Both the position numbers and the translations under genes were made by a program. From positions 1 through 36,844 of the forward strand of contig DASTUJ010000071.1 of the NCBI GenBank assembly GCA_035759705.1: DNA of 36,844 nucleotides. The letters are read 5' to 3'. The notes beneath the pieces are model-generated. The model searched no databases. It had not been told where the DNA came from and was given only the letters and a program-made list of their open reading frames with translations. Shown one piece after another: positions 972 through 5,712 of the stretch (the stretch's first letter is position 1; the number at the start of each line of letters is the position of its first letter). The DNA comes from Actinomycetota bacterium (GTDB lineage: Bacteria > Actinomycetota > CADDZG01 > JAHWKV01).

Positions 972-3104
972 TTAGAAGTGGCGGAGGCGCAGAGCGTTGG
1001 CCACCACGCTGACGCTCGAGAACGCCATCGCGCCGGCGGCGATACCCGGCGAAAGCTTGCCGAAGGCCGCGAGCGGAATCGCGGCCACGTTGTAGGCGAA
1101 GGCCCAGAACAGGTTCTGGTGGATGACCCTCAGCGTCTTGCGGGCCAGCCCGATCGCGGCCGGGATTCGGGTGGGGTCGGCGCTGATCAGCGTGATGTCG
1201 GAAGCCTCGATTGCCACGTCTGCTCCGGTGCCGATTGCGATTCCGAGGTCCGCCTGGGTCAGGGCGGGGGCGTCGTTGATGCCGTCGCCGACCATGGCGA
1301 CGATCTTGCCCTCGGCCTGGAGCCGGCGGATCTCGTCGACCTTCCCGCCGGGCAGAACTCCGGCGATCACCCGGTCGATCTTCACCTCGCGGGCGATGGC
1401 CGAGGCCGCGACGTGGTTGTCCCCGGTGATCATCGCCACCTCGACGCCCGCCTTCTTCAGCTCGGCAACCGCCTCGATGGACCCCTTGCGGAGGCGATCG
1501 GACAGAGCTACCAGGCCCCGGGCCTCGCCGTCCCAGCCGACCGCAACGACGGTTTTGCCCTGCTCCTGCAGCGCCCGGGCCCGGTCCTTCAGCTCCTCGG
1601 ACCGAAGCAGCCCCCGCTCCTGGAGCAGCAGCGCCTTGCCGACTACCACCTCGCCGCCGCCGATCACACCGTGGACCCCGAATCCCGTCGACGACCGGAA
1701 TTCGGTGACCGGCAAAAGGGTGAGCCCCCTCTCGTTCGCCGCCGCAACCACCGCCCGGCCGATCGGGTGCTCGGACCCCGACTCAACCGAGGCTGCCCGC
1801 ACCAGGACATCGTCCTCGGTCAGGTCCGCGGTGGTCACCACATCGGTGACGGTCATCCTGCCTTCCGTAAGCGTGCCGGTCTTGTCGAGCACCACGGCGT
1901 CCAGCTTCCCGGACCTCTCGAAGACCTCGCCGCCCCGGATCAGCACGCCCATCTCGGCCCCCCGTCCGCTGCCGGCCATGATCGCTGTCGGCGTAGCCAG
2001 GCCCATGGCACACGGGCAGGCGATTATCAGGACTGCGATCGAGGTGATCAGGGCCAGCTCGGCACTCCCGGAGGACAGATACCAAGCGGCAAAGGTAGCG
2101 AGGGCGATCACCAGCACGACCGGGACGAACACCCCGGCGACCCTGTCGGCCAGCCGCTGGACCGGCGCCTTGGAACCCTGGGCCTGCTTGACCAGCTCGA
2201 CGATCTGGGCGAGGGCCGTCGCAGTCCCCACCCGGTTGGCAACCACCTCGAGCCGGCCCTGCTGGTTGAGGGTGCCGCCGAAAACCTCGTCGCCCTGGAC
2301 CTTGTCGACCGGGACCGGCTCACCGGTCAGCATCGACTCGTCCACGGCGCTGCTTCCGCTCATCACGGTTCCGTCGACGGCGACGCGCTCACCGGGGCGG
2401 ACCACCAGGACATCGCCCGGCATGACCCGCTCCACCGGCACGGTGACCTCCTCGCCGTTGACCAGGCGAGTGGCGTTCTTGGCCCCCAGCTCCACCAGAC
2501 GGGCGATGGCCCCGGAGGTCTGGCCGACGGCCCGGGCCTCGAAGTACTTGCCCAGCAGGATCAGGGTGATGATGGCCGCGGCAGTCTCGAAGTAAACCGC
2601 GTGGCCGCCGGTGAGCAGCGACCACGTGCTGAACCCGAAGGCGCTAAGGCTCCCGACGGCAATCAGAGTGTCCATGTTCGTCTGCAGGCGGCGGAGTCGG
2701 GCGGCGGCGGAGCGGAGGAAGTGCCACCCTCCCCAGAACTGCACCGGAGCCGACAGGATCAAGCCAAGCCAGGCCATCTGCGTGTGGTCCATGCCCAGCG
2801 CGGCGCCCAGCCGGGGGATGAAGTGGAGGACGACCAGCGGGAGGGTCAGCGCGGCCGACACAAGGAGGCGGGTCCGCAGCTTGGCGGCCTGGGCGTCGTC
2901 GTCCCGGCCCCAGGCCCCCTCGGGCTGAACCGCCTCCATGCCGTACCCCGCCCGCTCGGTGGCGGCGACCAGGTCGGCCGGTGCTACGCCATCTTTGAGC
3001 GACACCACCGCCTGGCCGCCGGCGTAGTTCACGAAGGCGCTTTCCACGCCGGGCACCTTGCTGAGGGCCTTCTCGACCCGCATCGCGCACGACGCGCACG
3101 TCAT
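972..3104 (-). CDS. copA: Copper-translocating P1B-type ATPase CopA
   Basis: ATP-driven exporter of Cu(I) across the cytoplasmic membrane. From the ATG at 3104 the product is 710 aa. It contains one heavy-metal-associated domain (MTCASC at the N terminus), the TGEP actuator motif, the CPC metal-binding motif in a membrane helix ([11 protein letters not shown]), the phosphorylated Asp in DKTGTLT, the [10 protein letters not shown] motif, TGDN and GDGINDAP. The C terminus LRLRHF is typical. The start is a problem: MTCASC is the metal loop itself, and the preceding beta strand (LTFRVSG) is encoded in frame upstream without any ATG, GTG or TTG. An ATC at 3195-3197, five bases after a GGGGAG, would give a natural 741-aa protein overlapping copZ by 10 bases. 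Copper rather than silver or zinc is inferred from CPC plus the adjacent CopZ-like gene and CsoR-type operator. Confidence 0.95.
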
Positions 3105-3187
3105 CCCCGAGACCCTGAAGGTCAGATCCGTTACTTCAGACCCGGACCCCCCGGAGTTTTCGGCGACGTGCGGTGCTTCGGGACTTC

Positions 3188-3439
3188 CTACGCTGATGGC
3201 TTCTCCCCGATCTGGTGTACCTGTGCTGCAGCGGGACCGACGCCGTACCCTTCGCCCTCGATGGCGGCGACGATGCTGGCCAGCTGCAGTGCTTCGTCGT
3301 TGTAGTTGACGGTGACGTCCTTACGGTCGAGGTTCACCTTCACCGACTCCACGCCGTCGAGCTTGCCTACTGCGCCCTCGATTGCGTTGATGCAGTGGTG
3401 GCAGCTGACTTCGGGAACTTCCAGCACTTTCTCGGCCAT
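3188..3439 (-). CDS. copZ: CopZ-like heavy-metal-associated (HMA) copper chaperone
   Basis: Small cytosolic metallochaperone, 83 aa, that would carry Cu(I) to CopA. It is one ferredoxin-like HMA domain with the metal-binding CHHC loop (residues 13-16 in [10 protein letters not shown]) and the usual [11 protein letters not shown] and EGEGYGV segments. The loop is C-H-H-C rather than the more common C-x-x-C with small residues. The ATG at 3439 is preceded by a strong AGGAGGAG ribosome binding site. It is first in a copZ-copA unit: its TAG (3188-3190) lies inside the in-frame upstream extension of copA. A CsoR-type palindrome lies about 40 bases upstream, so copper-responsive derepression is likely. 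Confidence 0.92.
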
Positions 3440-3476
3440 TTACTCCTCCTGAAACTAGGTTGAATACCAGTGTCAC

Positions 3477-3493
3477 ATACCCCCGGGGGGTAT
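3477..3493. promoter_or_regulatory. CsoR-type copper operator upstream of copZ-copA
   Basis: The palindrome ATACCCCCGGGGGGTAT (five C, six G, flanked by CATA/TATG) matches the TACCC-GGGTA architecture of CsoR-family copper repressor operators. It lies 38 bases upstream of the copZ start, where a repressor would block transcription. No csoR gene is in the window, so the regulator must be encoded elsewhere. Confidence 0.75.
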
Positions 3494-3495
3494 GC

Positions 3496-3528
3496 AAAGA
3501 GCAGGTCCCGGGACGGTCCCTGCTCTTT
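3496..3528 (-). terminator. Hairpin terminator between the surface-protein gene and copZ
   Basis: AAAGAGCAGG (3496-3505) pairs perfectly with CCTGCTCTTT (3519-3528), a 10-bp stem around a 13-base loop. It lies 22 bases past the stop of the minus-strand gene ending at 3551 and just before the copper operator, so it would insulate copZ-copA. On the minus strand the T run is short (CTCTTTGC), so efficiency is uncertain. Confidence 0.6.
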
Positions 3529-3550
3529 TCAACCTACGCCTTGCTTGCGG

Positions 3551-4132
3551 TTACATGCGCTCAAGGGAGGCCGCAGCGTCGTCCTGCGCCTGGCGCCGGC
3601 GGCGGGCGTAGAACCACAACAGCCCGGAGCTCAACAGGGCCAGCCCCACCCATCCGGCGGAGGACCCGTCGGACTGCTCGACGGCGGGGCTTGCTGCGAT
3701 CTCAAGGTCGGGAACTCCGTCGACGGCTTCGGAAACAACCGGTTCCTCGGCCTTGGGCTCCTGAACCTCGTAGTCGGGGGCGACTTTGGGATCCGGGTCT
3801 TCGTCTACGCCGGGCTCCGGGTCCACCGGGGGCTCCGGGTCCACCGGAGGCTCGGGGTCGGGGCCGGGTTCCGGCGCCTTCTCGTCAAGCTGGTCCTCCA
3901 CGCACTGAAGGCCGTTGGGCCCCATCTCCAGGTCGCACAGCTCTGCCTGCTTGGGCTGCTGCACGCACTGCGGTCCGTTCGGCCCCTGCTCCAGGTCGCA
4001 GATCGGGAAGGGAGCGGCCGAGGCGGCCGGCGCCAGGAAAAAAAGTGAGGCGATCGTCAGGCCGGAGCCGGTTGCGACGAAGTGGACAACCCGGTTGGCG
4101 GTGATTCGGGTCCTGCAGGTGATTGCGTTCAT
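3551..4132 (-). CDS. Secreted, membrane-anchored Pro-rich protein with twin CDLExGPNGxQCV repeats
   Basis: I do not recognise a characterised family. The 193-aa product starts at an ATG (4132) preceded by AGGAGA. It has a hydrophobic signal segment (about residues 20-40, ending AAASAA), then two copies of a 13-residue Cys motif, CDLEQGPNGPQCV (45-57) and CDLEMGPNGLQCV (66-78). A Pro/Asp/Glu stalk with PDPEPPVDPEPPVDPEP follows (about 90-115), then a C-terminal membrane helix (about 160-176) ending in ARRRRQ. This suggests an exported protein held by a C-terminal anchor with a short cytoplasmic tail; no LPxTG motif is present. The two Cys of each repeat could form a disulfide loop. It lies 82 bases downstream of the membrane-tethered sigma factor on the same strand, which suggests a shared transcript or a target of that factor (inference). 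Confidence 0.75.
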   Translation of the reverse strand: MNAITCRTRITANRVVHFVATGSGLTIASLFFLAPAASAAPFPICDLEQGPNGPQCVQQPKQAELCDLEMGPNGLQCVEDQLDEKAPEPGPDPEPPVDPEPPVDPEPGVDEDPDPKVAPDYEVQEPKAEEPVVSEAVDGVPDLEIAASPAVEQSDGSSAGWVGLALLSSGLLWFYARRRRQAQDDAAASLERM

Positions 4133-4214
4133 TTGAGGTCTCCTGTCCGTTGGTTGCTTACGGAGACAGGAGGCGCTGCGAGCAGAAACCCTTACAAAAA
4201 ATCCTGAATCTTTT

Positions 4215-5624
4215 CTACCGCGGGATGGGGTCCCGCGGAGGATCGTCGTCCCCGGGTTCGGTCGTTCGGGGATCTTCTTCGTCGTCCTCGCTCGGGACCC
4301 CGTCTTCTCCGTCCTCACCGGATGCCCCGGGCCGGCCCGGATCGCCGGGAGGCGGCTTTGGGCTGACCGACGGTGTTGGGGAGGGCCGCGGGTTGGGGTC
4401 AACGGCCGGCCGGGTCGAAGGAACCGGCTTGGGCTGGGGTTTGGGCAGGACAACCGGCTTGGGAGACATCTTTTTCTGGCCGTCGGCGGGCGCGGCCGCT
4501 TCGACCGAGACCTCGGGGCTCGGAGAGACCTCCGGGGTCTTTAGGACTTCGTCGTTGAAGACCAGCGGGTAGGAGGGGTCAAGGGTGGTCTTCACCTCGA
4601 CCAAAACCTTCTCCTCCGGAGCGCTGCCCATGAGCGCCACGGTCGGCACCGCCAGCAGCAGGACCAGGACGATCACCGCTGCCACCATCGCAGCCAGGGG
4701 CGGGCGGCGGCGGCGGGCCATCGGGGGCGGGAAACCGCCGTTGTTGGAGGGCCAGCGCTCCTTGCCGTAGTCGTTCTGGGCGTCGACGGAGTCCACGTCG
4801 CTCTCGAATCCCACGAGCTGCATCTTCTCCAGCACCGCCTCCCGGGCGTAGGCCGGGGCTGCGATCAACGGCACGGCGCCGAGCATGGCCGCCGGGCTCA
4901 CGATCCGCTTGCGGAGCTCTCCGCAGATCTCGCACCCGTCGACGTGGCGGGCGACCCGCTTGCGCCAGGTGGCGGTGAACCGGCCGTCCCAGGGCTTCAG
5001 GATCGCTTCGAGCTTGCGGCAGTCCTTGCTCCCCTGGCGGGCGACCATCAGGGCGCCGAGCGAACGCTCCACCTGGTCGCGCATCCGGCTGAGCATCACG
5101 TAGGCGTGGCCGGGGGTGACGCCGAGGGCGTCGCCCAGCTCCCGCCCTTCGAGTCCCTGGCGCAGGTGCAGGTCCATGACAATGCGGTCCTGGGCCCCCA
5201 GACCTTCGGCGGCCTCCTGGAAAAGGATCGCCAGCTCGCTCTGGGCGGCTACCTCCGAGGGGCCGGCGGAGGTGTCGGCCAGCTCGAAATCTTCGTCCAG
5301 GGGGTCCAGCTTGCCGGAGCGCTTCAGGCTCTTCATCGCGAGGTGGCGGGCGATGGCGTAAAGCCACGGCCGCAGCTTCTCGGGGTCCCGCAGCTGGTCC
5401 ATGCGCGCGGCTGCGGTAAGGAAGGTGTCCTGGAGGAGGTCGGCCGCGTCCTCCCGGTTCCGGACGACGGTGCAGAGGAAACTGAAGATCCGGTCCGAGT
5501 ACCGGTCGTAGATGTCTGCGAAGGCTTGTTTGTCGCCTTCGCAGGCCGCCCGTACAAGCGGTGCGTCATCCATTGCCAGATCATAGTAGTCCACCTTCCG
5601 CCCCCGGAATCGCTCGATTTCCAT
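4215..5624 (-). CDS. ECF sigma factor fused to a zinc-finger anti-sigma-like domain, membrane helix and Pro-rich extracytoplasmic tail
   Basis: A 469-aa fusion. Sigma region 2 spans about residues 34-102 (DIYDRYSDRIFSFL, DLLQDTFLTA, RPWLYAIARHLA) and region 4 about 135-190 (QDRIVMDLHLRQGLEGRELG, YVMLSRMRDQVE). A zinc-finger signature of ZAS anti-sigma factors follows (C202, then H227-x3-C231-x2-C234 in HVDGCEIC). A single membrane helix is at about 310-332, preceded by MARRRR (positive inside). The tail of about 135 residues is rich in Pro, Ser and Asp and should be outside. This implies a sigma factor tethered to the membrane and held by its own anti-sigma-like domain, perhaps released by proteolysis (inference). 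The ATG at 5624 was chosen; a TTG at 5636 is also in frame, and neither has a strong ribosome site. Actinobacterial ECF groups with fused zinc fingers and membrane segments are known (ECF52-like). Confidence 0.88.
   Translation of the reverse strand: MEIERFRGRKVDYYDLAMDDAPLVRAACEGDKQAFADIYDRYSDRIFSFLCTVVRNREDAADLLQDTFLTAAARMDQLRDPEKLRPWLYAIARHLAMKSLKRSGKLDPLDEDFELADTSAGPSEVAAQSELAILFQEAAEGLGAQDRIVMDLHLRQGLEGRELGDALGVTPGHAYVMLSRMRDQVERSLGALMVARQGSKDCRKLEAILKPWDGRFTATWRKRVARHVDGCEICGELRKRIVSPAAMLGAVPLIAAPAYAREAVLEKMQLVGFESDVDSVDAQNDYGKERWPSNNGGFPPPMARRRRPPLAAMVAAVIVLVLLLAVPTVALMGSAPEEKVLVEVKTTLDPSYPLVFNDEVLKTPEVSPSPEVSVEAAAPADGQKKMSPKPVVLPKPQPKPVPSTRPAVDPNPRPSPTPSVSPKPPPGDPGRPGASGEDGEDGVPSEDDEEDPRTTEPGDDDPPRDPIPR
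4218..4238 (-). other. GC-rich hairpin overlapping the sigma-factor stop codon
   Basis: On the minus strand the last codons of the sigma gene form a perfect 8-bp stem, CCGCGGGA / TCCCGCGG, with a 5-base loop, directly followed by the TAG stop. A T6 run occurs about 17 bases further on, too distant for a classical intrinsic terminator. It could attenuate or stabilise the transcript ahead of the surface-protein gene. Confidence 0.35.
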
Positions 5625-5712
5625 TGGCCGCCGCAACGGCGACAGAGGGTAGAGGCGGGAAGGCGCCAGAACTTACGACTTTCCGGCAACTTCTTTTGGG
5701 TAGATTCAAAGG

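Follow-up and report, generated by a model that had tools for sequence, protein, structure and literature searches.

How can a sigma factor be released from an anti-sigma domain that is part of its own polypeptide? The question is raised by a gene on the minus strand at positions 4215-5624 of the window, by which we mean the whole 36,844-nucleotide stretch of DNA analyzed here (contig DASTUJ010000071.1 of an Actinomycetota bacterium). Our preferred answer, to which we assign a probability of roughly two in three, is that the gene encodes a self-inhibited, membrane-tethered ECF sigma factor that would be freed by proteolysis and would then drive its own gene and an adjacent gene for a surface protein.

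Domain order and topology of the fused protein

The ORF is uninterrupted and specifies 469 amino acids; by direct reading it runs from an ATG at 5624 to a stop codon at 4215-4217, with the exact start uncertain by a few residues. The initial annotation had proposed a one-piece sigma/anti-sigma protein that is tethered to the membrane and carries an outside tail, and this description was borne out by domain scans, hydropathy and a set of 35 fused homologues. Sigma region 2 occupies residues 38-104 (5313-5513, minus strand), where Pfam Sigma70_r2 matches with an E-value of 2e-11 and 44 bits against a cut-off of 24, and the NCBIfam model TIGR02937 (sigma70-ECF) covers residues 34-187 with 73 bits against a cut-off of 42.9. 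Region 2 thus scores above the curated cut-off, as is required of an ECF (sigma70 group IV) factor. An AlphaFold model of the full chain, made from an alignment of 6 sequences, was poor (mean pLDDT 56.6, pTM 0.40), and its docking of the ZAS domain onto the sigma part was set aside for that reason. A Foldseek search with this low-confidence model matched region 2 to that of E. coli sigmaE bound to the -10 element (4lup; TM-score 0.88 by target length, rmsd 1.6), which confirms region 2 alone.

Region 4, at about residues 125-190 (5055-5252, minus strand), is a divergent helix-turn-helix. It gives no Pfam match in the 469-residue protein, though it lies inside the TIGR02937 match, and Sigma70_r4_2 was matched at E<=0.01 in 6 of the 10 other family members scanned. 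In the alignment of fused homologues, 34 of 35 sequences conserve R180 of the helix-turn-helix, and the recognition helix does not follow the SRLHRAR pattern usually seen. The missing Pfam match and the unusual helix could mean that the protein is a degenerate sigma, no longer functional as such and turned to another purpose such as RNA polymerase sequestration. We regard this as very improbable, because region 2 scores well above its cut-off, D62 (33/35) and W87 (35/35) are conserved as well as R180, and a shared promoter-like dyad accompanies the gene at one relative's locus (L010, described below). A loss of DNA-contact residues of region 2 or 4 in homologues, which the initial annotation had named as grounds for doubt, is not seen for region 2, and region 4 has diverged and still reads as a helix-turn-helix.

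The sigma part is followed by a probable ZAS anti-sigma domain at residues 198-263 (4836-5033, minus strand). The segment HVDGCEIC at residues 227-234 and an upstream cysteine together form a C-x24-H-x3-C-x2-C zinc site with C202, H227, C231 and C234 as ligands, so that both the Hx3Cx2C motif and the fourth upstream ligand of class I ZAS domains are present; this fourth ligand is a cysteine, as in RsrA. All four ligands are invariant in the 35 aligned fused homologues, a count that is biased towards fused forms because retrieval used the full-length query. When a profile built from 27 of the 35 sequences was compared with 177,635 PDB sequences, RsiW, 3hug_B and DdvA ranked first to third (E 0.18, 0.26 and 0.56, none significant alone), and the occupation of all three top ranks by anti-sigma factors suggests a ZAS identity. 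The PDB lists 3hug_B as a probable conserved membrane protein, and we take it to be RslA. Pfam zf-HC2 was weakly matched in 10 of the 27 ZAS segments (best E 0.0048) and was not matched in that of the 4215-5624 protein itself.

Hydropathy analysis of the chain reveals a single hydrophobic stretch, at residues 313-331 (4632-4688, minus strand; Kyte-Doolittle 2.92), with a proline at its center (AVPTVA) and RRRR before it. Positive charges flanking a membrane helix mark its cytoplasmic side (the positive-inside rule), and because RRRR precedes the helix we place the N-terminus inside and the tail outside. The predicted extracytoplasmic tail (4218-4631, minus strand) is Pro-rich (24% proline) and has an acidic end; its length is 138 residues rather than the 135 given initially. 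No Pfam domain scored above cut-off in this tail.

Fused homologues and their tails

The initial annotation had named the joining of two genes by an error of sequencing or assembly as something that would refute its reading. The same single ORF is found in two congeneric genomes, at L009 (73-76% identity; L015 is the same contig, and the two were counted once) and at L016/L043 (70% identity), and the same order of domains recurs across the family. Nothing was found in favor of such an error, and we give it practically no credence.

A search of the class at E<=1e-20 found matches in 4 of 24 genomes, namely the window's own, the two congeners and one (G011) in which the match is a short protein that lacks a tail. 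Among the 20 class genomes with no match is a fourth genome of the genus (G005), which is 97% complete. Across the phylum, at E<=1e-25, 25 of 396 Actinomycetota genomes had a match, the window's own and its two congeners included. The set of 35 fused sequences comprises 29 from genomes and 6 from plasmid records, the latter drawn from 19 plasmid records with a match. Left out were ECF proteins with a zinc finger and no membrane helix (L017, L011), short ECFs (L012-L014, and L002-L007 from the window's own genome) and one protein of the ECF52 type (L085). A membrane helix is predicted in 34 of the 35; the exception, L067, is on a contig that ends before this point, and it was still counted.

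Across the family in Actinomycetota the order sigma-ZAS-TM-tail is kept, and the tails vary freely in length and domain: some are Pro-rich only, and others carry BACON, PASTA or CAP domains. One fused sigma (L059, 5440-6999, plus strand) has PASTA domains in its outside tail (Pfam E 1.5e-17); the PASTA fold is known for binding wall precursors. By analogy with the PASTA, CAP, BACON or NPCBM tails of relatives, wall sensing by the outside tail of the window protein is plausible.

Several other arrangements were seen. The fused plan is not confined to Actinomycetota, since a Thermomicrobium roseum plasmid (NC_011961.1) encodes a fused ECF/ZAS/TM protein (L075, 3923-5233, plus strand). Two fused sigma/anti-sigma genes lie in tandem in one f27 genome (G091; L045, 7788-10772, plus strand). 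Soluble one-piece forms, in which an ECF sigma has a C-terminal Hx3Cx2C and no membrane helix, occur in a Myxococcota MAG (L011, 5965-6777, plus strand) and in the window's own class (L017).

In a tree of 44 rows, the window, L009 and L043 proteins form one clade (support 100/100), adjoined by L010 from the Propionibacteriales (90/76). L085, the sole ECF52-type row, falls outside a 36-row clade (96/82) and groups with unfused ECFs on a branch 2.35 long. It has the plan of SCO4117, with sigma, zf-HC2 and NPCBM in the protein and a TetR gene adjoining, and we take its NPCBM domain to be the Pfam counterpart of smart00776. Placement among the ECF groups therefore speaks against ECF52: the window protein probably is not a member, because its tail has no carbohydrate-binding module detectable by Pfam, the method that found NPCBM in L085, and, less firmly given the long branch, because L085 lies outside the clade. 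ECF48 is a possible home, given that the nearest rows are L010 and the f27 genomes, which appear to be mycobacterial.

The adjacent gene and a candidate promoter motif

Downstream of the fused sigma gene, at 3551-4132 on the minus strand, lies a gene for a 193-residue secreted protein that is its probable target or partner. A signal peptide opens the product and a C-terminal membrane helix followed by RRRR closes it, with two CDLE-x-GPNG-x-QCV repeats and a stalk rich in proline and acidic residues in between; NCBIfam LPXTG_anchor and MYXO-CTERM match it with 17.3 and 18.5 bits. We rejected it as a sortase substrate, as it has no LPXTG motif. The Cys-pair repeats (3902-4003, minus strand) vary in number, with two in the window and four in L009 (7449-8099). 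The link between the fused sigma and this gene, raised in the initial annotation, has gained support: wherever the genus has this gene, in three genomes (the window's, L009 and G004), it adjoins the fused sigma gene, both genes are absent from G005, and the two upstream regions jointly match a relative's candidate promoter motif with a shuffle p of 0.003 (see below).

On its other side the 3551-4132 gene is divided by an inverted repeat near 3496-3529 from genes for a copper-type P-type ATPase and an HMA-like small protein (972-3104 and 3188-3439, both minus strand), which are preceded at 3477-3497 by what we take to be a CsoR-like operator, ATACCCCCGGGGGGTATGC. This setting bears on a second way of opening the protein, in which the zinc site would itself be the sensor: cytoplasmic redox change or metal loss would open the ZAS domain, as in RsrA, and the tail would be a mere anchor or wall-attachment stalk. 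The region of the sigma gene adjoins the copper operon, and the zinc ligands never vary among the 35 homologues whereas the tails vary freely. However, the copper genes look separately controlled by the CsoR-like operator, relatives bear outside binding domains (PASTA, CAP, BACON), and zinc motifs in membrane-bound anti-sigma factors may be structural, as in RsiW (partial text of PMC7406223). We thus think a zinc sensor improbable.

The locus of L010 offers a different set of neighbors. Genes downstream of its fused sigma gene encode a sortase (Pfam E 3.7e-21) and an anchored secreted protein. A sortase could not be linked to the window's own system, since its genome has four sortase matches and G005, although without a fused sigma gene, has five. 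Judged by a crude rule for signal peptides, secreted proteins are modestly enriched near fused sigma genes (24 of 63 near ORFs versus 72 of 323 others, at 18 of 35 loci); the same rule missed the window's own 3551-4132 partner. Directly upstream of two fused sigma genes are L,D-transpeptidase (YkuD) genes with lipoprotein-like signal peptides (L062, 6199-6999, plus strand; L065, 8243-9025, minus strand), which are another link to the wall. In L009, from the OFTM18 MAG, the fused sigma gene has a CBASS-like operon (1448-5314, minus strand; SMODS nucleotidyltransferase, patatin, ThiF/E2 fusion) as its immediate upstream neighbor, in place of the genes that the window and G004 carry at this position.

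A promoter motif is most apparent at the L010 locus, where TTGCAAGG-N16-CTCCTAC stands upstream of each of three genes; the candidate consensus is TTGYAAGG-N16-CTCCTAC. The exact dyad occurs three times in the 3.6-Mb genome of L010 (G396), and all three copies belong to the fused-sigma locus, where they precede the fused sigma gene, the sortase and the anchored secreted protein. The sole site with one mismatch in that genome lies about 46 nt before a gene for a similar secreted anchored protein, with a signal peptide, GCFTGCDLPE, a Pro/acidic part and a C-terminal membrane helix. When as many as two mismatches are allowed, the pattern has 6 sites and its reversal 8, and weight can therefore be given to the exact and one-mismatch sites only. 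In 396 other Actinomycetota genomes the exact motif had no match and its reversed control had two.

Related sites are found in the window. Before the 3551-4132 gene, the candidate promoter TTGTAAGG-N17-CTCCTGT (4166-4197, minus strand) agrees with the L010-derived motif at 12 of 15 positions (shuffle p 0.0035), and all three orthologues retain its GTAAGG. For the fused sigma gene itself, the upstream site TCGTAAGT-N15-CTCTAC (5649-5678, minus strand) is a candidate for an autoregulatory promoter, and a three-way alignment shows its GTAAG and CTCT conserved. Taken by itself it does no better than shuffled sequence, 23 of 200 shuffles being as good, and when the same upstream region is scored with the strict L010 motif the best match is a different one, at 10 of 15 (p 0.255). 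The three orthologues conserve GTAAG(G) and CTC ahead of the sigma gene as well as the partner gene, and when both upstream regions are scored jointly with the strict motif the window has a shuffle p of 0.003, L009 one of 0.0015 and L043 one of 0.04. A test for a shared dyad that makes no use of the L010 motif passes, among 17 loci, only in L010; shuffles were as good in 36 of 40 cases for the window, 14 of 40 for L009 and 1 of 40 for L043.

Searches with the pattern did not exceed their reversed controls in the window's genome (2 sites versus 3) or in the four genomes of the genus (13 versus 14). The motif is mostly absent upstream of other family members, and a scan for Sigma70-type promoters found nothing. 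A site before a bPH_6-like gene next to hisF is kept in two genomes and overlaps the hisF stop codon, which makes it a weak candidate. Taken at the level of sequence, these data suggest that the fused sigma may recognize the TTGYAAGG/CTCCTAC motif. The candidate promoter code and the predicted surface-protein targets are what may be new here; we found no literature that ties fused ECFs to sortases or anchored surface proteins, in a search that covered mainly open-access papers.

Proposed release of the sigma part and comparison with known systems

In the proteolytic reading that we prefer, the cytoplasmic sigma2-sigma4 part would be held in cis by the adjoining ZAS domain, and the chain would span the membrane once, to its outside tail rich in proline. 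A signal at the surface would act on this tail and cause it to be trimmed; cleavage by a site-2 (Rip1/RseP-like) protease would follow and free the sigma part. Through promoters of the TTGYAAGG/CTCCTAC type, the freed sigma would activate its own gene and the adjacent 3551-4132 gene, with its secreted, membrane-anchored product. The best M50 protease in the window's genome is an HEFGH protein adjoining a dxr-like gene, presumably a Rip1/RseP-like site-2 protease; the mycobacterial Rip1 gene likewise adjoins dxr. A site-2 protease gene in the same genome makes proteolytic release possible, and its presence says little because M50 proteases were found in 14 of 14 control genomes.

The initial annotation held that release must involve cleavage or conformational change, and this is the published model for such fused sigma factors (partial text of PMC8999054). 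If the conformation alone were to change, the tail would pull on or refold the ZAS domain and the sigma would work while still tethered, in the manner of membrane-bound one-component regulators. Since ZAS covalently adjoins sigma4, a small shift might suffice, and release of this kind has been described for ECFs with C-terminal extensions such as ECF41 and CorE (partial text of PMC8999054). Nevertheless, the roughly 75 residues that link ZAS to the membrane would restrict the search for promoters, and the one tested membrane-tethered fusion, IutY, needs Prc and RseP (partial text of PMC5411451). We therefore judge conformational release unlikely.

If the proteolytic reading is correct, the wider meaning may lie in the targets. 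It is conceivable, and we offer it only tentatively, that the proteins form an unnamed group of one-piece switches within a closed surface-maintenance circuit, in which the tail reads the wall and a private promoter code, TTGYAAGG-N16-CTCCTAC, delivers the response. The sigma would then control itself, a sortase (in relatives) and small Cys-rich anchored proteins, and the latter may be what the tail senses; such sortase and anchored-protein targets suggest that the purpose of these switches could be upkeep of the cell surface. The family supplies compact examples in which a promoter is predicted and a probable target gene lies next door, and for this reason release, cis-inhibition and regulon are testable with one plasmid and one reporter.

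The one-piece architecture is not novel, being known from related bacteria, and both the fused membrane architecture of ECF48, ECF52 and ECF53 and release by proteolysis are already in print (partial text of PMC8999054). ECF48 and ECF53 of the Actinobacteria resemble the window protein in having a C-terminal ZAS-like zinc finger and one or two membrane helices, with predicted proteolytic activation (same source). The ECF52 protein SCO4117 of Streptomyces coelicolor shares the plan of sigma, zinc finger, membrane helix and Pro-rich outer region in one chain; proteolytic release has been proposed for it, it is autoregulated, and its sigma part alone kept some function and activated its own gene (partial text of PMC5826349). 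Its group differs from the window protein in ending with a carbohydrate-binding module (smart00776), and the published motif CSGYN-17-SRHA differs from the candidate motif described here (same source). The SCO4117 gene is adjoined by atrA, as the L085 gene is by a TetR gene.

IutY of Pseudomonas putida (ECF243) is likewise a single membrane protein with both a sigma and an anti-sigma part, and Prc and RseP bring about its release (partial text of PMC5411451); it is described as the only one-piece sigma/anti-sigma with proven proteolytic release (partial text of PMC8999054). In contrast to the window protein, its anti-sigma part is a periplasmic domain of the type used in cell-surface signalling, partnered by an outer-membrane receptor, in a Gram-negative host; the text seen of PMC5411451 mentions no ZAS. 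The class I anti-sigma factors RsiW, RslA and ChrR have an Hx3Cx2C zinc domain that clamps an ECF sigma, as the ZAS domain of the window protein would, but they are separate proteins, whereas here the zinc domain sits on the sigma chain. Carbohydrate-sensing anti-sigma factors of the RsgI type carry an outside sensor on a membrane anti-sigma that is a separate protein, is paired with SigI rather than an ECF sigma and has no ZAS. The likeness to RsgI drawn in the initial annotation is thus only an analogy.
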